A stretch of DNA of 64,000 bases, from positions 1,240,001-1,304,000 of the forward strand of contig NZ_CP049304.1 in assembly GCF_019444005.1 (NCBI RefSeq). The letters run 5' to 3'. The position numbers and the translations under genes were made by a program. The DNA comes from Liquorilactobacillus nagelii DSM 13675. GTDB taxonomy: Bacteria; Bacillota; Bacilli; Lactobacillales; Lactobacillaceae. The notes beneath the pieces are model-generated. The model was given only the letters and a program-made list of their open reading frames with translations. It was not told the DNA's origin and made no database searches. Positions 6,399 to 22,936 of this stretch are shown here, in pieces (positions within the stretch are counted from its first letter, which is position 1; every line of letters starts with the position of its first letter).

Positions 6399-7196
6399 TT
6401 ATTCATACTTTAAGCTTGTATTTTTGACATCAGTTACCAGCATATGTCCCGGTGCATGAGTAATCACAAAGGCTGGTTTAACTTGCATAATGACATTTTG
6501 CGGCGTTACTCCACAAGGCCAAAAAACTGGAACTTCACCAGGTTTGATTGGCACCGGATCACCATAATCTGGATGAGCCAAGTCATGAATTCCAATTTCA
6601 CTGGGATGACCGATTTGAATTGGTGCCCCGTGAACCCTAGGCATGGCCGCTGTAACCTTAACTGCTGTCACAACTTGTGCTTCCGGGATTGGCCGCATAC
6701 TAACCACCATCTGCCCGTGAAATTTACCAGCGGGCTGTAATTCAATATTAGTGTTATACATTGGCACATTTACACCTAAAGAAATTTGGCGAACTTCAAT
6801 TCCAGCTGCCAGCAGTTCAGCTTCAAAAGAAAAACTGCAACCAATAATAAAGCTAACAAAATCATTGCGCCAATATTTTTCAACGCTGGTAACCTCTGCC
6901 GTTAATTTTCCGTCACGATAAATGCGATACTTAGGAAAATCATTAGCTAAATCAATATCCTGAGCAAAATGCTGCAATTTTCGACTACCCGAATCGCTAA
7001 CTTCAAGAATTGGGCAGGGTTTAGGGTTACGCTGAGCAAACAATAAAAAATCATAAGCCAAACTACGGGGTAAAATCACTAAGTTAGCTTGCGTAAAACC
7101 AGCAGCTAAGCCACTTGTTTGCCCACTAAAACCGCCATTGCGGATTAAATGCCGCAATTCAACTGGCGATAATTTGCTTAACGATGACTTCTCCAT
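6399..7196 (-). CDS. ycsI: DUF1445 putative hydro-lyase, YcsI-like
   Basis: A 265-residue cytosolic protein of the DUF1445/YcsI family, usually annotated as a putative hydro-lyase. It is related to the mammalian D-glutamate cyclase domain, which interconverts D-glutamate and 5-oxo-D-proline. Conserved stretches include NGGFSGQTSGLAAGF (near residue 15), FIIGCSFSFE (near 115) and a C-terminal GVTPQNV segment. GGAGG precedes the ATG. Together with PxpABC in the same operon, a role in handling the D-isomer of 5-oxoproline is a reasonable inference, not shown by sequence. Confidence 0.8.
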   Translation of the reverse strand: MEKSSLSKLSPVELRHLIRNGGFSGQTSGLAAGFTQANLVILPRSLAYDFLLFAQRNPKPCPILEVSDSGSRKLQHFAQDIDLANDFPKYRIYRDGKLTAEVTSVEKYWRNDFVSFIIGCSFSFEAELLAAGIEVRQISLGVNVPMYNTNIELQPAGKFHGQMVVSMRPIPEAQVVTAVKVTAAMPRVHGAPIQIGHPSEIGIHDLAHPDYGDPVPIKPGEVPVFWPCGVTPQNVIMQVKPAFVITHAPGHMLVTDVKNTSLKYE

Positions 7197-7214
7197 CCAT
7201 TCAACCTCCTCGGG

Positions 7215-8531
7215 TTAATTTGTCTGAGTCAACTGATCTAGCCAATTAATGTCGGCTTTTAATTGTAAATAATCCGGTTCTGTTAAAAGTTGCAGCAAAA
7301 AATCTAGATTTGTGTTGATTCCACTAATCACAGTTTCATCAAGTGCCATTTTCATGCGTTGAATGACTGTTTGCCGATCAGAACCATAAGCAATAATTTT
7401 AGCAATCATTGCATCATAATTTGGTGGAATTAGATAACCTTGATAGATTGCTGTGTCAACTCGAATTCCCCAACCTCCTGGTAAATGCAACCCTGTTATT
7501 TGACCAGCAGTCTGGGCATTGATTCGACATTCTAAAGCAAATCCAGCTAATGGATGTGGGAGAGCTGGTGGCAGTTTTTCACCCGCGGCAATTTTTAGTT
7601 GCCACTTGACCAAATCAATTCCACTAGTCAGCTCAGTAATTGGATGCTCAACTTGAATCCGCGTATTCATCTCCATGAAATAAAAATGTGTCGGATCTGC
7701 TAATAAAAATTCCATTGTTCCGGCTCCCGTATAATGCAGCTTTTTAGCTGCTATCCGCGCCGTATCCAATAGTTTTTCACGAGTTGAAGCAGTTAAACAC
7801 TCAGCTGGCGCTTCTTCAATTACTTTTTGATGATGCTGCTGAATTGTACAATCACGTTCACCAACAGCCCAGACAGTTCCAGCTTGATCAGCTAAGATTT
7901 GGACTTCAATGTGCCGTGGCTTTGCTAAATATTTTTCTAAATACATTTGTTTACTACCGAAAGCTTTGACTGCCTCATTTTGTGCCAAAGAAAATTCATG
8001 TTCGAACTGACTAGCTTGGTTGATAACCCGCATCCCCTTGCCACCACCACCTGCACTGGCTTTGAGCATCACTGGGAAACCAATCTTTTGAGCGGCAGCT
8101 AAACCAGCTGTGGCAGTGGTAAACTCGCTCGGGCTACCCGGTGTAACTGGCATTCCAGCTGCCGTCATGGTTTGACGAGCAGCGGCTTTTTCACCCATTA
8201 GCTCAATAACTGCCGGATCAGGTCCAATGAAATTCAAACCAGCGTCTTGGCATTGACGTGCAAACTCAGCATTTTCAGATAAAAAACCGTATCCTGGATG
8301 AATTGCATCTGCTCCAGTCAACTTAGCTGCTGTAATCAATGCTGATTGGTTCAAATAACTTTCTGTTGCCGCAGCTGGGCCAATACAGATTGATTGATCA
8401 GCCAATTGAACATGTAACGCAGCTCGATCGGCTGTCGAGTATACCGCGACTGTTGGAAGATTTAGTTCGCGGCAGGCCCGAATTATCCGAACCGCGATTT
8501 CACCGCGATTAGCTATCAAAACTTTTTTCAT
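7215..8531 (-). CDS. accC: Biotin carboxylase (AccC-type) in 5-oxoproline operon
   Basis: A 438-residue ATP-grasp enzyme that carboxylates a biotin group using ATP and bicarbonate. It shows the N-terminal KKVLIANRGEIAVRIIRA, the glycine-rich loop KASAGGGGKGMRV (near residue 158) and the catalytic EMNTRIQVEHPITE (near 286). Length is slightly short of the roughly 450 usual, mainly at the C-terminus. It follows accB by 10 bases. No accA or accD is present, and the gene sits among pxpB, pxpC and pxpA. It is therefore more likely a subunit of a dedicated carboxylase than of acetyl-CoA carboxylase for fatty acids. Confidence 0.9.
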   Translation of the reverse strand: MKKVLIANRGEIAVRIIRACRELNLPTVAVYSTADRAALHVQLADQSICIGPAAATESYLNQSALITAAKLTGADAIHPGYGFLSENAEFARQCQDAGLNFIGPDPAVIELMGEKAAARQTMTAAGMPVTPGSPSEFTTATAGLAAAQKIGFPVMLKASAGGGGKGMRVINQASQFEHEFSLAQNEAVKAFGSKQMYLEKYLAKPRHIEVQILADQAGTVWAVGERDCTIQQHHQKVIEEAPAECLTASTREKLLDTARIAAKKLHYTGAGTMEFLLADPTHFYFMEMNTRIQVEHPITELTSGIDLVKWQLKIAAGEKLPPALPHPLAGFALECRINAQTAGQITGLHLPGGWGIRVDTAIYQGYLIPPNYDAMIAKIIAYGSDRQTVIQRMKMALDETVISGINTNLDFLLQLLTEPDYLQLKADINWLDQLTQTN

Positions 8532-12110: not shown

Positions 12111-12385
12111 AATAAAAGCCCCTGCTCCCATGATTTCCATGAGGACAAGGGCGATATTACTCGCTTTACCACCTATAATTTTGCAATAACTCACATTACT
12201 GCACTCTAAAAGTATGATTAATACTCAGCATGATAATGGATGCTGCCATAAGCACTTAATTATTCGGCACTTATCAGCGCTGAAACCATCTTCGAAATAA
12301 TTGTTGGTTACTTTTCAGCCAACCGTAACTCTCTTAACAACAATTCAAATCTACTCAATTCAGCTTTGCTGATGATATTTCTGTT
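12111..12385 (-). promoter_or_regulatory. T-box leader, probably methionine-specific
   Basis: The transcribed leader contains a Stem I with an AGTA element (GAGTAGATTTG) and the AGAGAGTT distal motif. A specifier loop ends GAAGATGGTTTC, with ATG as the likely specifier codon. The T-box core AGGTGGTAAAGCGAG is at 12161-12174 and is a variant of the AGGGTGGTACCGCG consensus. A terminator follows, with arms at 12146-12152 and 12118-12124 and a T-run. Uncharged tRNA-Met would favour antitermination. The downstream MetE-like enzyme fits a methionine response. Confidence 0.87.
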
Positions 12386-16750: not shown

Positions 16751-16790
16751 AAAAACATCGGTTTAATGACTTGTTTAACCGCCGTTTTTA
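16751..16790 (-). terminator. Weak terminator at the end of the aro operon
   Basis: On the minus strand AAAAC-GG-CGGTT pairs with AACCG-AT-GTTTT across an internal loop, followed by TTTTTGTTT. It overlaps the last codons of aroB and marks the likely 3' end of tkt-aroE-aroF-aroB. Confidence 0.55.
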
Positions 16791-17887
16791 GACTTTAATT
16801 TAACTTTTTTCTGCGACAATTCTTGTTGCAGCCAGCCAATTATTTGTTTTATTGGATAACAATAAAATTCAGGCTGGCCAATTTTCTTTAAATAAATCAT
16901 CGTTAGTTGCTGCTGTTTAATTTTCTTATCATGTTTTAAAGCTCGATAAAAATCCGTCGTGCCTAATTCATCATCACTTAGCGGCAACCCAACTGCCTGC
17001 AACCGCGTTGAAATTTGTTCTGTTACACCAACAGCAGTTAATTTTTTTTGTTCAAATAGTCGACTTAATTGATAAAGGCCGATGGCAACCGCTTCACCAT
17101 GAAATAGCCTTCCACCCGCAGCTTGTTCCACTGCATGGCCGAGTGTGTGCCCTAGATTAAGCAGCTGTCGCCGCCGCGTTTCAGTTTCATCTGCAGCAAC
17201 AATTTGGGCTTTAAAACGAACACTAGCTTCAATTAAAGCATTTGCATTACGCATAATTGCTTGAGGACTCTTGATCTGACCAGTTAACTGCCAGAAGTCT
17301 CCACCTACTAAGGCTGCACATTTAACAATTTCACCATACCCTTCTACTAAGCAGCGCGATTTGAGGGTTAATAAAACGGTCGGATCAATTAAAACTAAAT
17401 CTGGTTGATAAAAAGTACCAACTAAATTTTTACCAGCAGCTAAGTCAATTGCTGTTTTGCCACCGACTGAACTGTCAACTTGAGCAAGTAAAGAAGTTGG
17501 TAACTGAATTAAAGCAATTCCACGCAAATAAATTGAAGCTGCTAGTCCAGCTAGATCACCAACGACCCCGCCACCCAAAGCCAAAATACCATCCTGCCGA
17601 CTGAAATGTTTTTCTGCCAACTGCTGGATGATTTTTTCTAAATTCATCCAAGATTTACTGGACTCACCAGCTGGAATCGTTAGTACTTCAACAACAAAAC
17701 CTCCAGCATTTAATTGTTGCTGAACTTGATCAGCATATAAGGGGCCAACATTTTCATCAGTAATCACAGCAACCTTCCGTGGTGACCAAACTGTTTGCAC
17801 TTTTTCCCGTAATTTTTTCAGGCCATGATCAATGATCTCGATATTATAAGTTTTTGATTTTGCATTAACAATAATCGTCTTTTCCAT
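16775..17887 (-). CDS. aroB: 3-dehydroquinate synthase
   Basis: A 370-residue NAD- and metal-dependent enzyme converting DAHP to 3-dehydroquinate, the second shikimate step. The NAD-binding GGGVVGDLAGLAAS is near residue 105, and a metal-binding glutamate in VEGYGEIVKC is near 185. LNLGHTLGHAVE near 243 supplies the metal-binding histidine. The C-terminus is lysine-rich. It starts 16 bases after the DAHP synthase gene and is last in the operon. Confidence 0.96.
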   Translation of the reverse strand: MEKTIIVNAKSKTYNIEIIDHGLKKLREKVQTVWSPRKVAVITDENVGPLYADQVQQQLNAGGFVVEVLTIPAGESSKSWMNLEKIIQQLAEKHFSRQDGILALGGGVVGDLAGLAASIYLRGIALIQLPTSLLAQVDSSVGGKTAIDLAAGKNLVGTFYQPDLVLIDPTVLLTLKSRCLVEGYGEIVKCAALVGGDFWQLTGQIKSPQAIMRNANALIEASVRFKAQIVAADETETRRRQLLNLGHTLGHAVEQAAGGRLFHGEAVAIGLYQLSRLFEQKKLTAVGVTEQISTRLQAVGLPLSDDELGTTDFYRALKHDKKIKQQQLTMIYLKKIGQPEFYCYPIKQIIGWLQQELSQKKVKLKSKNGG

Positions 17888-17903: not shown

Positions 17904-18875
17904 TCATTCAGCCATTAATTGATGAATTGCTTGAGCTTGTCGAGTCATTGCTAAGTAGGTAGCTGGTTTAAGTGCCTGTGGCCCATCAGAAAATGCATGT
18001 TCTGGGTCATCATGAATTTCCACAATCAATCCAATTCCAGCGGCTGCCATCGGTGTTACCAAGTCCCAGCGTCCAACTGCATGACTTGGATCAGCAATTA
18101 TTGGGTAAGGTGTCAATTGCTGTAAGACAGGAATGGCTGCCACATCAAAAGTGTTGCGCGTATATTTGCTATCAAAGGTTCGAATTCCTCGTTCAATCAA
18201 CATGATTTGCTGATTGCCACCCGCTGCAATGTACTCAGCAGCATTTAACAAATCATCAATCGTTGCTGACATGCCACGTTTCAAAGCTACAGGTATCTTT
18301 GTTTTACCAACTTCTTTTAATAATGAAAAATTCTGCATGTTACGCGCCCCAATTTGAAAAATGTCAGTGTATTCAGCCACCAATGGAACATGTTCATCAT
18401 CCATGACTTCAGTAATCACATCCATTCCATTTTGATCAGCCGCTGCCCGCAAATATTTCAACCCCTCTTCACCTAATCCTTGAAAAGAATATGGTGAAGT
18501 ACGAGGCTTAAAAGCACCACCACGTAAAACTGTTGCTCCACCTTTTTTAGCGACAGCAGCCATTTTGAAAATATGATCACGATTTTCAACTGAACAAGGA
18601 CCCGCCATAATTGTTAAACTATCAGAACTGATGTGAGCATGAGGTGTCTTAATTACAATATCTTCTGGATGGAATAAACGACTTGACTGAATGGCTGCTG
18701 GTGTTTTTTCAATAATTTGCTCGGCAGCAACTTGAATCTCCCGTGGGAGCTCAGTAGCAGTTGCACCAACAACTGCTACCCGATTTTGATGAACCAGAAC
18801 TTGCTTTTTATTGGCAAATATTTTTTTAATCCGAGCAATATTTTCAGAAATTTCCTTTTTTAAAATAATAATCAT
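17904..18875 (-). CDS. aroF: 3-deoxy-7-phosphoheptulonate (DAHP) synthase
   Basis: A 323-residue type I-beta DAHP synthase that condenses phosphoenolpyruvate with erythrose 4-phosphate, the entry step to aromatic amino acids. A short N-terminal ferredoxin-like extension (to about residue 75) precedes the barrel. GPCSVENRDH is near 93, GGAFKPRTSPYSFQGLG near 118 and IADPSHAVGR near 260. There is no fused chorismate mutase. Its ATG overlaps the aroE stop by four bases. Allosteric control by the N-terminal extension is possible in this class. Confidence 0.94.
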   Translation of the reverse strand: MIIILKKEISENIARIKKIFANKKQVLVHQNRVAVVGATATELPREIQVAAEQIIEKTPAAIQSSRLFHPEDIVIKTPHAHISSDSLTIMAGPCSVENRDHIFKMAAVAKKGGATVLRGGAFKPRTSPYSFQGLGEEGLKYLRAAADQNGMDVITEVMDDEHVPLVAEYTDIFQIGARNMQNFSLLKEVGKTKIPVALKRGMSATIDDLLNAAEYIAAGGNQQIMLIERGIRTFDSKYTRNTFDVAAIPVLQQLTPYPIIADPSHAVGRWDLVTPMAAAGIGLIVEIHDDPEHAFSDGPQALKPATYLAMTRQAQAIHQLMAE

Positions 18876-19744
18876 TTTGTTCTCCTCCTAATTTCGGTTG
18901 CTAAACTTTTTCTAACCAAATCTATTGGCATTGACTGACCTGTCCAAAACTTAAACGCCAGTGCCCCTTGCCACAATAACATCCCAGTTCCATTGCAAAA
19001 TTGGCAGCCAACTCGCTGAGCATATAGCAAAAAAGGTGTCATCAATGGTTGATAAATTAAATCATAGACAAATTGTTGGGGGCGTAAATGTTGTAATACC
19101 ACTAACGGCAATGGCAATTGCTGGTCATCCATTCCTTGATTTGTAGCATTGATTACAATTGAACTAGCTCTTAACGCTGCTGTTAAAGAGGTCATATCCG
19201 AATAACTGACCAAACAATATTCTGTCGGACTTAGTGCAGATAATTGCTTAAGCCAAGTAGCTAAATCGGCATAAGTTTGGTTTGGACGTTTGGCGACAAA
19301 AACCCGTTTTATATGATAGTCTGCTGCTGCAATAATCGCCCGACCTGCACCACCAGCTCCTAAAATCATAATTGTTTGACCTGCTAGGAGTTGATGCTTT
19401 TCTTGTAAATCGGCAAATAATCCTGCACCATCAGTACTATCTCCAACCAAGTGTCCCTGATCATTTCTGAGCGTATTAACCGCCTGAATTCGTTGCGCTC
19501 GTGGTGTTAATTCATCAAGATATTTGAGCACAGTCTGTTTGAAAGGCAATGAGAAATTAGCACCTGCAAAATCTATTGCTCTTAAACCGATGATTGCCTG
19601 CGAAAAATCAGTCGGCAAAACATCAAATGCTAAATAGCAAGCATTTAACTGCTGCGCTCGAAAGCTCAAATTATACATTAAAGGCGAAAGACTATGATGC
19701 GCTGGGTGGGCTAAAAACGCGTAAAGCTGTGTATTTCCATCCAA
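18872..19744 (-). CDS. aroE: Shikimate dehydrogenase
   Basis: About 290 residues. It reduces 3-dehydroshikimate with NADPH. The shikimate-binding HSLSPLMYN is near residue 16, the catalytic lysine lies in FSLPFKQTV near 65, and the nucleotide loop GAGGAGRA is near 130. The preferred start is the TTG at 19744, eight bases after GGAGG. A TTG two codons earlier is too close to that site and no in-frame ATG is available. It lies between tkt (16 bases) and DAHP synthase (overlapping). Confidence 0.92.
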   Translation of the reverse strand: MDGNTQLYAFLAHPAHHSLSPLMYNLSFRAQQLNACYLAFDVLPTDFSQAIIGLRAIDFAGANFSLPFKQTVLKYLDELTPRAQRIQAVNTLRNDQGHLVGDSTDGAGLFADLQEKHQLLAGQTIMILGAGGAGRAIIAAADYHIKRVFVAKRPNQTYADLATWLKQLSALSPTEYCLVSYSDMTSLTAALRASSIVINATNQGMDDQQLPLPLVVLQHLRPQQFVYDLIYQPLMTPFLLYAQRVGCQFCNGTGMLLWQGALAFKFWTGQSMPIDLVRKSLATEIRRRTK

Positions 19745-19759
19745 ATTCAATTCCTCCGT

Positions 19760-21778
19760 TCAGCCAATTACCGACAACGATTCTTCATTTTCAGGCCGTA
19801 TCTGCTGATAGATTTGAACAATTCGATCAACGCTAAAACCAGCTGCTGGTAATAAGTCCTCCATTGCTCCGCTGACACCAAAATTCGTCACGCCGACAAT
19901 TTTTCCGTCTAAGCCGACATATTTTTCCCAGCCCTGCGGCGTTCCTAATTCAATTGCTACCCGCCGCCGAATCTGTGGTGGTAAAACTTTTGCTTGATAC
20001 TTAACTGATTGACGAGAAAACCGTTCCATTGATGGCAGGGAAACTACACTAACATCTTGTCCTAATTCCAATAATCGTTTTTGAACCTGCAATGCTAAAG
20101 CAACTTCTGAACCGGTTGCTAAAAGAATTCCAGTTGGCTCTACTCCCTTTTGTGATGCAATTACATAGCCACCATGATCAACTCCACGTTCAGCAGTCAA
20201 ATTAGTGTTTGGTAAAACGGCTAGTTGTTGCCGACTTAAAATTAGAATCGTTGGATGATCAACTACACTGACAGCTTGATTCCAAGCAGCCATAACTTCA
20301 TTAGGATCAGCTGGTCGGAATACTTCAACTCCCGGAATTTGGCGCAGGCTCATCAATTGTTCAATTGGTTGATGAGTTGGTCCATCTTCTCCAACTGCCA
20401 AAGAATCGTGCGTAAAAATGAAAGTCACCGGCAGTCTCTGTAAGGCTGCCAATCGAATAACTGGACGCAAGTAATCTGAAAAAACTAAGAATGTTGCACC
20501 GAAAACTTGCACTCCCCCATGTAGCGCCATGCCGTTTAAAATTGTTCCTTCACCAAATTCACGAACTCCAAAAGCTAAATTGCGTCCAGTTGGTTTTTCC
20601 GGTGTCATCAACGAACTATTCTCAATCGTTGTTCGATTAGAAGTGGCCAAATCAGCTGACCCACCCACTAAGTTAGGATTTTGTTGGGCAAGAGCTTGAA
20701 TTACTTGATGGCTAGTATCACGGCCTGATTCGGCACCACTCTCGTAACGTGGTAAGGTAACTTTGATTTCAGTTTGTCCTGTCAGCAATTGTTTGAAGTC
20801 CGCTAATGCCGCTGAATCAACTAGAGCTAATTCGGCAACTTGTTGATGCCACTGTTTGGCTGCATTCTGCCCCCGATTACGTACTAATTGCTGAGCGATT
20901 TGGGCAACTTCGGGCAAAACAGTAAAGGCTGGAGCATTCCAAGCTAAATTTTCCCGCAAAACTGCTAACCCGGTTTTTCCCAATGGCTGGCCATGAACTT
21001 GATTAGTTCCAGCATTTGGAGCGCCATAGCCAATAGTCGTTCGTACTTCAATCAAAGAAGGAGCTGCTGTTTGTTTTGCTGCCGTCAAAGCCTGATCAAT
21101 TGCAGCTAAATCATTTCCATCCGCTACCATTTGTGTATTCCAACCATAACTAGCAAAGCGTTGGCAAACATCAGTTTTAAATGAACGAGAAGTTGGACCA
21201 TCAAGCGATACATCGTTCGAATCATACAAAACAATCAATTTTTGCAACTGCTGCCGGCCAGCAAAGCTTGCAACTTCATGTGAAACACCTTCCATCAAAT
21301 CACCATCACCCACTAAAGCATAGGTGTAATGATCAATCAGCTTTTTCCCAGATTGGTTGTACTTAGCTGCTAAAAAGCGTTCAGTCAAAGCCATTCCAAC
21401 GGCCATTCCTAGCCCTTGACCAAGTGGACCAGTTGTCGCTTCAACTCCTGGAACTTCGCCATACTCAGGATGTCCCGGTGTTCGACTACCGAATTGGCGA
21501 AAATGTTTCAAATCATCAATGGTTAAATCAAAACCGGCTAAATGCAGCATACTGTACAGCAAAGCCGAACCATGACCCGCGGATAAAACAAAGCGATCGC
21601 GGTTAAACCATTGCGGATCGTGACTATTAATTCGTAAATGACGACTCCAAAGACACCACATCATCGGTGCAGCGCCTAATGGTAATCCCGGATGACCAGA
21701 ACCTGCCTGTTCAATCATCTCAACACTCAGCATTCGTAAATTATTTACAGCTAATTGATCTGCTTTTGTTACCTTCAT
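19760..21778 (-). CDS. tkt: Transketolase heading the aromatic operon
   Basis: A 672-residue thiamine-diphosphate enzyme. It has the N-terminal [15 protein letters not shown] (near residue 26), the diphosphate-binding [13 protein letters not shown] (near 155) and the pyrimidine-domain region with [16 protein letters not shown] (near 460). It interconverts pentose, triose and hexose phosphates and yields erythrose 4-phosphate, a DAHP synthase substrate. That explains its place at the head of the aro genes. ATG at 21778 follows GGAGG by seven bases; the adjacent TTG is too close. Expression probably depends on the upstream attenuator. Confidence 0.95.
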
Positions 21779-21807
21779 CAATACCCCTCCATTCTTTGGT
21801 TCTTAAC

Positions 21808-21848
21808 AACAAAAAAGACTTTTGCAGTCAACACTGCAAAAGTCTTTT
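21808..21848 (-). terminator. Attenuator terminator ahead of tkt-aroE-aroF-aroB
   Basis: A perfect 16-bp stem (21813-21828 with 21833-21848) and a four-base loop, followed by six T on the minus strand, lie 30 bases before the tkt start. It is placed to stop transcription before the operon unless an upstream alternative fold forms. Confidence 0.92.
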
Positions 21849-21860
21849 AGCATTTAGACG

Positions 21861-21994
21861 TACCCTAAAAAAGGGTAACCCCTCCAAATGAGAAAAGCCG
21901 CACAGTGCTGTTTGCATCGTGCGACTCCATAATTTCATACAAAAATTACTGGTCACATCCGATGCGGGAATGTAATGCCCGCATCAAATGTGAC
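21861..21994 (-). promoter_or_regulatory. Structured leader between aromatic leader peptide and terminator
   Basis: Three hairpins lie in order on the minus strand. Arms 21978-21994/21952-21968 give a 7+8 bp stem with a two-base mismatch. A GTCGCAC/GTGCGGC stem spans about 21898-21924. TACCCT/AGGGTA lies at 21861-21877. In addition ACCAGTAAT (21945-21953) is exactly complementary to ATTACTGGT (22013-22021), which contains the Tyr-Trp codons of the leader peptide. This offers a switch that a stalled ribosome would disturb. Confidence 0.7.
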
Positions 21995-22001
21995 GCGGAC
22001 A

Positions 22002-22064
22002 TTACTTGATAAACCAGTAATAATAAAATCGTGCATTATCAGTAATTAATTTTTGTAAGTTCAT
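22002..22064 (-). CDS. Aromatic leader peptide (20 residues)
   Basis: The reading frame encodes MNLQKLITDNARFYYYWFIK, with AAGGAG upstream of the ATG. Residues 13-18 are Phe-Tyr-Tyr-Tyr-Trp-Phe, so all three aromatic amino acids are sensed in one run. It is followed by alternative pairings and an intrinsic terminator, and then by transketolase and three shikimate-pathway genes. This is the arrangement of ribosome-mediated attenuation known from trp and phe operons of enteric bacteria. The match between peptide content and pathway is direct evidence; the mechanism is inferred. Confidence 0.88.
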   Translation of the reverse strand: MNLQKLITDNARFYYYWFIK

Positions 22065-22125
22065 TATGGCATTCTCCTTAGATTAATAACAATATAATGA
22101 GTTAAAGCTGATATTTAATAATGTG

Positions 22126-22154
22126 ATTCTAACTTCAAAATTATCAAATGTCAA
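22126..22154 (-). promoter_or_regulatory. Promoter of the aromatic leader/tkt operon
   Basis: TTGACA (22149-22154), a 17-base spacer and TAGAAT (22126-22131) place the transcript start about 55 bases before the leader-peptide ATG. Confidence 0.85.
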
Positions 22155-22189
22155 CTGTTTTTTTAGAAATTTAAGTTTTGTTAATTTAA

Positions 22190-22936
22190 TTATAACTGCA
22201 ACTGTAATTCTGCTAAAATTGTCCGCAATCGCGCTACCGAAATTTGTCCTGGAGCTGAACTTGTACCTACAGAACCAAAAGTCAGTACCGAACCAAACAA
22301 TTCACCACTTAATCGAGTGATCTTTCCTAAGCTTCCCATTGCCATAGTAATCACAGGTAATGGCAGTTGATCAGCAGCTTTACGCGTAGCTGTTAAAAGT
22401 TCCAAAACATCATACGCTGTATGTGGCATAACTGCAATTTTTGCCAGATCAGCCTGCATTTCATTCATTAATTTCAAATGATTTAGTATTTGGGCTGTCG
22501 TTGGCGTCTGTTGGAAATCATGATAACTTAAAATAACTGGCAATTTATGCTGGTGGGCTACTTGAACAAGCGTTTCCACTTGCTGATGATTACGAGCAGC
22601 CTCAATATCCAATGCATCAGCCAGCTGTTGATCGATTATTTTCCGTAGCAAACCAAAATACTGTTTTTCACCCAAAGCCTGTACCCCACCCTCTTCTTGT
22701 GTCCGAAAAGTTAATAGTAAAGGTACTTTTAAAATCAAACGTAATTTGCCAGCTAATTGCTTAATGCTACTTAAGTCTTGAAGATAATCTAAGCGCCACT
22801 CGACAAGATCCGGTTGAGTCTTCATAACAGCTTGAGCTTGCTGTAGTAATTCGGTCGCAGATTTCCCAGTCAATGACACTGCTATTTTTGGACAACCATT
22901 ACCTAAAGTCAGCTTACCTATTCTAACTGTTTTCAT
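22190..22936 (-). CDS. aroD: 3-dehydroquinate dehydratase, type I
   Basis: A 248-residue class I enzyme converting 3-dehydroquinate to 3-dehydroshikimate through a Schiff base. The glutamate of EWRLDYL is near residue 46, the histidine of SYHDF near 138 and the lysine of KIAVMP near 166. Length is typical. It lies upstream of the aromatic operon on the same strand but ends before that operon's promoter, so it is outside the attenuator unless read-through occurs. With aroB, aroE and DAHP synthase it completes the early shikimate steps up to shikimate. Confidence 0.95.
   Translation of the reverse strand: MKTVRIGKLTLGNGCPKIAVSLTGKSATELLQQAQAVMKTQPDLVEWRLDYLQDLSSIKQLAGKLRLILKVPLLLTFRTQEEGGVQALGEKQYFGLLRKIIDQQLADALDIEAARNHQQVETLVQVAHQHKLPVILSYHDFQQTPTTAQILNHLKLMNEMQADLAKIAVMPHTAYDVLELLTATRKAADQLPLPVITMAMGSLGKITRLSGELFGSVLTFGSVGTSSAPGQISVARLRTILAELQLQL

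Follow-up and report, generated by a model that had tools for sequence, protein, structure and literature searches.

A leader ORF with Phe, Tyr and Trp codons upstream of tkt-aroE-aroF-aroB in Liquorilactobacillus nagelii: a predicted transcription attenuator and its probable relationship to the trpB motif

Upstream of the tkt-aroE-aroF-aroB operon of Liquorilactobacillus nagelii DSM 13675, we found a short open reading frame with the aromatic run FYYYWF, followed by alternative hairpins that end in a terminator. We are confident in predicting that this leader is a ribosome-mediated transcription attenuator. (The window that we analysed is 64,000 nucleotides of contig NZ_CP049304.1, positions 1,240,001 to 1,304,000; all positions below are those of the window unless another locus is named.) The first-pass annotation of this DNA had proposed attenuation by a Phe/Tyr/Trp leader, and this proposal is supported by the conservation of the aromatic codons, by the match between leader and aroF within the genus, and by covariation in the antiterminator. 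More broadly, we think it probable that a single ancestral attenuator scaffold is present in Lactobacillales and Clostridium, that evolution has re-programmed its sensor codons, and that it explains two orphan RNA families, RF04312 (the trpB motif) and RF02863.

The leader, its operon and its relatives in Lactobacillaceae

The leader lies between aroD (22936-22190) and the start codon of tkt (ATG at 21778) on the minus strand, and it directly precedes the biosynthetic operon (Table 1). The promoter, the ribosome-binding site, the 20-codon frame and the 16-bp terminator are all present where the first-pass annotation placed them, and NCBIfam models confirm the identity of the four downstream genes. 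Codons for the end products are clustered in the frame, which has a Shine-Dalgarno sequence and is probably translated. Between the frame and the terminator, inverted repeats are nested over about 150 nt. The predicted fold of the leader has an energy of -112.8 kcal/mol, as compared to -66.8 +/- 4.6 kcal/mol in 100 shuffles (z = -9.9). Pattern scans by themselves were not above shuffled sequence, either for promoters (5 promoter-like sites vs. a mean of 3.6) or for terminators (1 vs. 0.9), so the weight of the case is on the comparison with relatives.

Table 1. Features of the leader and the operon. Coordinates are positions in the window, and (-) is the minus strand. The z scores are from the partner-swap test with 23 leaders.
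Feature	Position	Comment
Promoter TTGACA-17-TAGAAT	22154-22126 (-)	pattern scan; 11/12 consensus letters
Shine-Dalgarno AAGGAG of the leader ORF	22079-22074 (-)	
Leader ORF MNLQKLITDNARFYYYWFIK, 20 codons	22064-22002 (-)	aromatic block in 48/48 extracted leaders
Segment 0, putative sensor codons Tyr-Tyr-Tyr-Trp	22014..22025 (-)	whole block FYYYWF is 22028-22011
Segment 1	21995..22005 (-)	overlaps the stop codon; partner is segment 2; 1:2 z -10.0
Segment 2	21972..21994 (-)	partner 1 (ON) or 3 (OFF)
Segment 3	21952..21968 (-)	partner 2 (OFF, z -8.7) or 4 (ON, z -5.4)
C0 CCAGTAAT	21952-21945 (-)	perfect complement of the Tyr-Tyr-Trp codons ATTACTGG at 22021-22014
Segment 4	21919..21925 (-)	partner 3 (ON) or 5 (OFF); 4:5 z -10.6, inflated
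Segment 5	21897..21910 (-)	partner 4 (OFF) or 6 (ON); 5:6 z -7.6
Segment 6, terminator 5' arm and loop	21829..21848 (-)	includes the 3' half of the antiterminator pairing
Segment 7, terminator 3' arm	21813..21828 (-)	16-pair terminator is 21848-21813
Antiterminator core	21910-21901 with 21838-21829 (-)	covariation and folding
RF04312 (trpB motif) match, sub-threshold	21886..21996 (-)	full length (1-107); 28.9 bits vs. threshold of 59
tkt, transketolase	19760..21778 (-)	TIGR00232 (NCBIfam)
aroE, shikimate dehydrogenase	18872..19750 (-)	TIGR00507 (NCBIfam)
aroF, DAHP synthase, B. subtilis type	17904..18875 (-)	TIGR01361 (NCBIfam)
aroB, 3-dehydroquinate synthase	16775..17887 (-)	TIGR01357 (NCBIfam)

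No T-box (RF00230) was found in the leader, either at the Rfam gathering level (whole window) or at E = 10 (21700-22250). In fact, at the gathering level, no Rfam family matched anywhere in the window. In the same genome, RF00230 has 32 matches at E = 0.01, including 14 above the threshold, and 0 of the 32 are in the leader. Unlike a T-box, the sensor here would be a translated ORF. (Elsewhere in the window, at 12144-12375 on the minus strand, a T-box match of 82 bits, vs. a threshold of 93, lies just upstream of an ORF that by eye resembles a MetE-type methionine synthase. This is likely a Met T-box, in which case the window holds both kinds of regulation.)

A DNA search of 150 relatives gave matches in 12 genomes. 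Copies of the leader were identified this way in 8 genomes of the genus (including the window's own genome and one relic) and in one genome of another genus. We built a covariance model (R1) from eight leaders and searched 397 genomes of the family with it; at E = 0.05, 51 genomes gave a match, and these belong to 12 of 40 genera. Excluding two spurious matches and the relic, this gives 48 intact leaders from 11 genera. (The two matches that we judged to be spurious, L065 at E = 0.02 and L082 at E = 0.039, have neither an aromatic upstream ORF (uORF) nor aro genes. An antisense match of R1 at the window itself was also judged to be spurious, because the hairpins are palindromic.)

All 48 intact leaders keep the aromatic block, with at least four aromatic residues ahead of the stop codon, but R1 (like the model R2, below) was built with the aromatic codons and with 0:C0, 2:3 and 4:5 as pairs, so the conservation of these among the matches is partly due to selection. 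The block takes the forms RFYYYWF, SYYYYWF, RYYYYWFF, SYYYFWF, RFSYYWS and AFSYYW, and in 46 of the 48 the stop codon follows the Trp codon within 5 codons. The N-terminal residues upstream of the block drift. This is the pattern that the first-pass annotation had suggested looking for, and no intact leader kept the terminator and lost the aromatic codons, which it had named as evidence against attenuation. An AGGAG-like site precedes most of the leaders (it is weak in genus g17), and by eye, boxes similar to the window's promoter (TTGAC-17-TA...T) recur in the relatives. As judged by matches to the window's proteins, the downstream genes are mostly aro or tkt, in the arrangements tkt-aroE-aroF-aroB, aroE-aroF-aroB, or aroF-aroB. 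(By eye, the gene after L063 resembles chorismate synthase.)

A comparison within the genus is free of the circularity of the codons, because aroF was found by its protein and not by the leader model. The aroF protein is present in 7 of 14 genomes, and these are exactly the 7 with an intact leader, so in all 14 genomes the presence of aroF agrees with that of an intact leader.

Two unusual leaders should be mentioned. In the relic (L010, in genome G009), segments 1 to C0, between two copies of AGTAAT, have been cleanly deleted. RFYYYWFIQ and then the later hairpins are retained, the operon has decayed, and the genome has no aroF. In genus g13 (L062 and L064), the leader is RYYYFWFFHKHL, 24 nt replace segments 1-3, and the next gene is an aminotransferase. 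This is possibly a reduced attenuator for aromatic transamination.

Alternative pairings and the proposed relay

We defined segments 0-7 and C0 by eye. Their pairs alternate: with 1:2, 3:4 and 5:6 (ON), the terminator is broken, and with 2:3, 4:5 and 6:7 (OFF), it is made. To avoid reliance on an alignment, we used a partner swap, in which the duplex energy of a segment with its own partner is compared to its energy with partners from other leaders (2000 permutations). The sample was 23 of the 48 leaders, spread over genera and with genus g13 left out. (By our rule, 9 of the 48 have no 4:5 hairpin, and two of these, L046 and L075, are in the test with empty segments.)

The ON pairs were neither in the search model nor used to place the segments, and all three strongly favor the native partner (z scores in Table 1; 0 of 2000 permutations for each). 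Native partners are also favored for 2:3, 4:5, 0:C0 (z = -7.3) and 6:7 (z = -17.0), again with 0 of 2000 permutations for each, but this is partly by construction. The search model contains 2:3, 4:5 and 0:C0; we located segments 4 and 5, and 6 and 7, through their pairing with each other; and in L063 we shifted C0 to where it pairs best. An advantage from placement is thus built in for 4:5 and 6:7 and slightly for 0:C0. Six control pairs that were not predicted showed no native-partner advantage in the same 23 leaders. We also considered a hairpin of the sensor codons with segment 1 (0:1), which seemed plausible on inspection, and rejected it (z = -1.1 in these leaders and +1.5 in 32 genera with the trpB motif, described below). 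In genus g14, the 5:6 pairing extends by eye to 13-14 bp. Overall, the computations show mutually exclusive pairings that end in a terminator or an antiterminator, and the antiterminator that the first-pass annotation could not find is identified, with covariation to support it.

The first-pass annotation had also recommended folding the leader with and without a ribosome on the aromatic codons. We folded only the RNA downstream of the ribosome and ended it before the 3' arm of the terminator. With the A site at F13 to W17, the antiterminator 5:6 is at 0.99 and 3:4 is at 0.84, and 1:2 is at 1.00 where it can be scored (F13-Y16). With the A site at F18, 5:6 is at 0.91. In contrast, 5:6 is at 0.09 at I19, 0.22 at K20, and 0.03 without a ribosome, and 2:3 is then at 0.98-0.99. 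In the window's leader, the fold switches where the aromatic block ends. One result that counts against the relay is that the ON state also appears (5:6 at 0.95) when the ribosome waits on the stop codon, with a reach of 13 nt, so the OFF state needs release of the ribosome or a smaller footprint. Of the 48 leaders, 18 switch by more than 0.2 in the fold relevant to the last terminator, 29 are neutral, and one is reversed; equilibrium folding misses the order of synthesis, so we consider this to be partial support.

With TTTT after it, the 4:5 hairpin may act as a weak first terminator. TTTT is retained after 4:5 in 30 of the 47 Lactobacillaceae leaders that could be scored (using a regular expression). 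Under stalls, 4:5 persists at its own decision point (0.88-0.93 for F13-Y16 and 0.99 for W17 and F18), which also counts against the relay.

A complement of the sensor codons had been reported at 21945-21953. The complementarity is real, and C0 tracks the codons across leaders: it is CCAGTAAT with TACTGG, CCAATAGT with TATTGG, and CCAGAAGT with TTCTGG. However, the window's own fold without a ribosome does not use it. In that fold, 0:C0 is at just 0.01, and C0 pairs partly with 22050-22047, inside the ORF, so a clamp on the sensor codons is not what the fold shows. A clamping role for C0 is uncertain.

We infer that a shortage of aromatic amino acids would stall the ribosome and lead to read-through, as follows. 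The ribosome would translate the leader while following RNA polymerase. A shortage of charged tRNA for Phe, Tyr or Trp would stall it in FYYYWF (segment 0), which would leave segment 1, around the stop codon, unpaired, and 1:2 would form. This would liberate segment 3 to form 3:4, which would in turn liberate segment 5 to form 5:6. The 5:6 pairing would capture the 5' arm of the terminator, and transcription would proceed into tkt-aroE-aroF-aroB. If Phe, Tyr and Trp are all ample, the ribosome would finish and depart, and 2:3, 4:5, and then the terminator 6:7 would form. Since the three residues are in one run, shortage of any one of them is expected to induce, and the leader would control entry into the shikimate pathway as an OR gate. 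And since segment 6 (the 5' arm of 6:7) pairs with segment 5, both terminators could follow the same signal.

Related leaders and the trpB motif

Outside of the Lactobacillaceae, we searched with a second model, R2, built from 46 leaders. Among 395 genomes of the order, 22 had an R2 match at E = 0.01. Nine of the matches are outside the family and are weak (E = 2.5e-4 to 4e-3), and all nine are at a uORF with YFSYFR or YFSYYR, upstream of aroE and aroF. Across 398 genomes of the phylum, R2 had no match besides the window's own genome. A scan of genomes for the pattern of segments 4-5 gave 52 loci, of which 45 have a candidate uORF with at least four aromatic residues. (These were chosen by a script, whose pick at L141 was the wrong ORF. 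L141, from Alkalibacterium and the same locus as L175, is a Trp leader that we read by eye and that the script later recovered. Among the seven loci with no candidate uORF, L107, L114, L115, L117 and L118 are from unrelated phyla and were rejected, the sequence of L122 begins inside the ORF, and L138 is described below.)

Leaders from Enterococcus and Vagococcus carry [FY]YFSY[FY]R and are mostly upstream of aro genes. Leaders from Lacticaseibacillus carry YYYGYYG, and two proteins encoded after them are TrpX-like binding proteins (317 and 289 bits vs. a TrpX cut-off of 390). The scan also found three loci in Clostridium, two of which (L104 and L140) are upstream of transporters, and a leader in Lactiplantibacillus mudanjiangensis. 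Trp-only and Tyr/Phe versions of the leader occur well outside of the lactobacilli. By eye, all three Clostridium loci have two similar terminators in tandem, which suggests that 6:7 may have arisen by copying 4:5. Some Enterococcus species have two aromatic leaders (L100/L116, L105/L146 and L113/L151), for example one before aroE/aroF and the other before shikimate kinase or an aroB-like gene. At L138, in C. tetanomorphum (positions 7167-7338 of that locus), the scaffold is kept and the peptide, read by eye, differs (MKNLLNKRVLVVFSSQFR).

When Rfam was searched with relaxed thresholds, RF02863 (Enterococcus sRNA_2410) was above its own threshold at L103 and L116, and RF04312 was above its own threshold at L141 and at a second site in L103. 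The three Clostridium loci have weaker matches to both families. At L103, the match to RF02863 spans from inside the uORF to beyond the second terminator. In the window, RF02863 has no match in 21700-22250 even at E = 10. The two Enterococcus loci that match RF02863 resemble the window's type of leader in having an aromatic peptide (YYFSYFR or FYFSYFR); unlike the window's leader, they have no Trp codon, and the RNA was reported as an sRNA (PMC5593968). That report describes two transcripts from E. faecium sRNA_2410 on a Northern blot, and ends at the two terminators would fit.

Narunsky et al. (2024, PMC11109978) described the trpB motif (RF04312), with over 900 representatives, as a strong riboswitch candidate. 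We searched 198 genomes of the order with RF04312: 113 matched at E = 0.001, and 41 of these were above the threshold. The window's match does not reach the threshold, but the window does have the same order of elements, with hairpin 2:3 and then 4:5 upstream of an amino-acid gene, and it aligns to the full length of the model. We examined 110 matches, namely 30 loci and 80 chosen from a list, with 23 lower-scoring places left out. In RF04312, the model begins only downstream of the uORF, and the presence of a uORF is therefore an independent test.

In the first 30 loci, a uORF with a Shine-Dalgarno site and Trp lies just upstream in every case, and 20 of them have WQSW or WQNW. Overall, a Shine-Dalgarno-led uORF is in place at 107 of the 110 matches; by the rule that we used, the other 3 have none. 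Trp is present in 102 of these uORFs: 69 have two or three Trp codons (all as W..W) and 33 have one. Another four matches (L237, L249, L253 and L260) have Tyr/Phe uORFs with YFSYF or FSYF, and the uORF at L230 is non-aromatic. So, Trp or Tyr/Phe codons precede 106 of 110 matches, which is comparable to the window's aromatic uORF. Of 2200 shuffled upstream sequences, 485 gave a Shine-Dalgarno-led uORF in place, 82 gave one that contains Trp, and 2 gave W..W. Among L152-L261, Gln is often directly after Trp (WQS or WQN), and this includes leaders with a single Trp.

We obtained a downstream ORF for 103 of the 110 matches and ran 98 of these against Pfam. The hits were ABC_sub_bind (92), PALP, a family of PLP enzymes (5), and shikimate dehydrogenase (1). 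The one transporter with a Trp leader that we tested passes the TrpX equivalog cut-off, and the two PLP enzymes that we tested are TrpB. Three transporters with Tyr/Phe leaders are below the TrpX cut-off. In these small numbers, the sensor codons appear to track the downstream genes.

The pairings of the trpB motif are similar as well. We used 32 of 33 one-per-genus representatives from 37 matched genera. (L199 was dropped because a simpler rule misread its uORF.) The partner swap supports 1:2 (z = -7.8) and 3:4 (z = -3.9), as well as 2:3 (z = -9.6) and 4:5 (z = -19.7), the last two being partly built in, via the RF04312 model for 2:3 and via placement for 4:5. The 0:C0 pairing was without support in these 32 genera. 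In this Trp type, 4:5 is the terminator itself, and the relay ends there; the window's leader differs in having the extra terminator 6:7, codons for Phe and Tyr as well as Trp, and tkt-aro genes downstream. Folding could be scored for 105 of the 110 matches. With a stall at the last Trp, the terminator arm is sequestered (at least 0.5) in 88 of the 105, vs. 37 without a ribosome and 31 with a ribosome on the stop codon. Considered leader by leader, the switch exceeds 0.2 in 65 of the 105 and is reversed in 6, and the other 34 are neutral. In all likelihood, the trpB motif is an attenuator of the leader-peptide type, whose sensor codons can be exchanged.

The relay that we describe for the window, but with a sensor made of Trp or Tyr/Phe codons, seems to underlie both RF04312 and RF02863, and common descent of these families and the window's leader is likely. 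The window's leader appears to be a divergent relative of both, and its homology to the trpB motif would rest on intermediates and not on any single strong score. Across the proposed scaffold, Trp codons would serve trpB and TrpX; Tyr or Tyr/Phe codons would serve TrpX-like transporters and aro genes; Phe, Tyr and Trp codons together would serve tkt-aro; and a second terminator would often be coupled to the first.

Instead, the aro leaders of Lactobacillaceae and the trpB-motif leaders could be independent look-alikes. The window's low score against RF04312 would fit with this, as would the results of R2 across the phylum. Nevertheless, we consider convergence to be unlikely. The aro leaders of Enterococcus and Vagococcus form a bridge between the two groups, given that all of the R2 matches outside the family are at aromatic uORFs before aroE and aroF, and Enterococcus leaders match RF02863 above the threshold and RF04312 below it. 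Furthermore, the order of the segments is identical in both types of leader.

A different question is whether the peptide senses free aromatic amino acids as an arrest peptide, as TnaC does, instead of a shortage of tRNA. Non-aromatic parts of the peptide do recur across groups (LN ahead of the block, WQS/WQN, and YYFSYFR), and the 33 single-Trp uORFs leave room for an arrest-peptide component. But the block varies in one position (FYYYWF, YYYFWF, FSYYW, YYFSYFR, YYYGYYG and WQNW), which fits better with the reading of codons. Also, we reason that induction by the free ligand would have the wrong sign for operons for biosynthesis and uptake. We view arrest as quite improbable. A metabolite riboswitch with an incidental uORF, as proposed for the trpB motif, is very hard to credit: PMC11109978 ranks the motif as a strong candidate with an unknown ligand, yet itself leaves a classic attenuator open, and the uORF is nearly always present and usually contains Trp, its codons fit the downstream gene in the few cases tested, and the ON pairs 1:2 and 3:4 covary in both sets of leaders. 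Ribosome-mediated attenuation is our preferred explanation for both types of leader.

Comparison with known attenuators and implications

The trp, pheA and his attenuators of enterobacteria have a leader peptide with codons for the end product, alternative hairpins, and a terminator before the operon. The window's leader has the same parts (leader peptide, alternative hairpins and terminator). It differs in its longer relay (seven segments), in having three aromatic amino acids in one run, in preceding genes for shikimate entry and transketolase, and in being from other bacteria. Panina et al. in 2003 reportedly considered the aromatic genes of low-GC Gram-positives. Leader-peptide attenuation in Gram-positives is described for the His leader peptides of Firmicutes (PMC2965389, PMC9413887), which are similar in that they involve attenuation where T-boxes are usual and differ in their codons (His), taxa and genes. 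In the open PMC literature, we found no description of aromatic leader attenuation in lactobacilli or enterococci. In the open PMC literature from 2023 on, the phrase "trpB motif" was found only in PMC11109978.

Our results offer a mechanism for a published class of orphan RNAs. Without it, one would look for a small-molecule ligand of these RNAs; swapping codons makes the question of the trpB motif directly testable. The leaders form a natural series, in which one scaffold appears to have been re-tuned to different amino acids, and which may be useful for designing amino-acid sensors. They also suggest that lactobacilli, enterococci and their relatives, where T-boxes are usually expected, commonly use leader-peptide attenuation. 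In L. nagelii, a single leader that reads three residues would govern entry into the whole aromatic pathway, together with the transketolase that supplies erythrose-4-phosphate.
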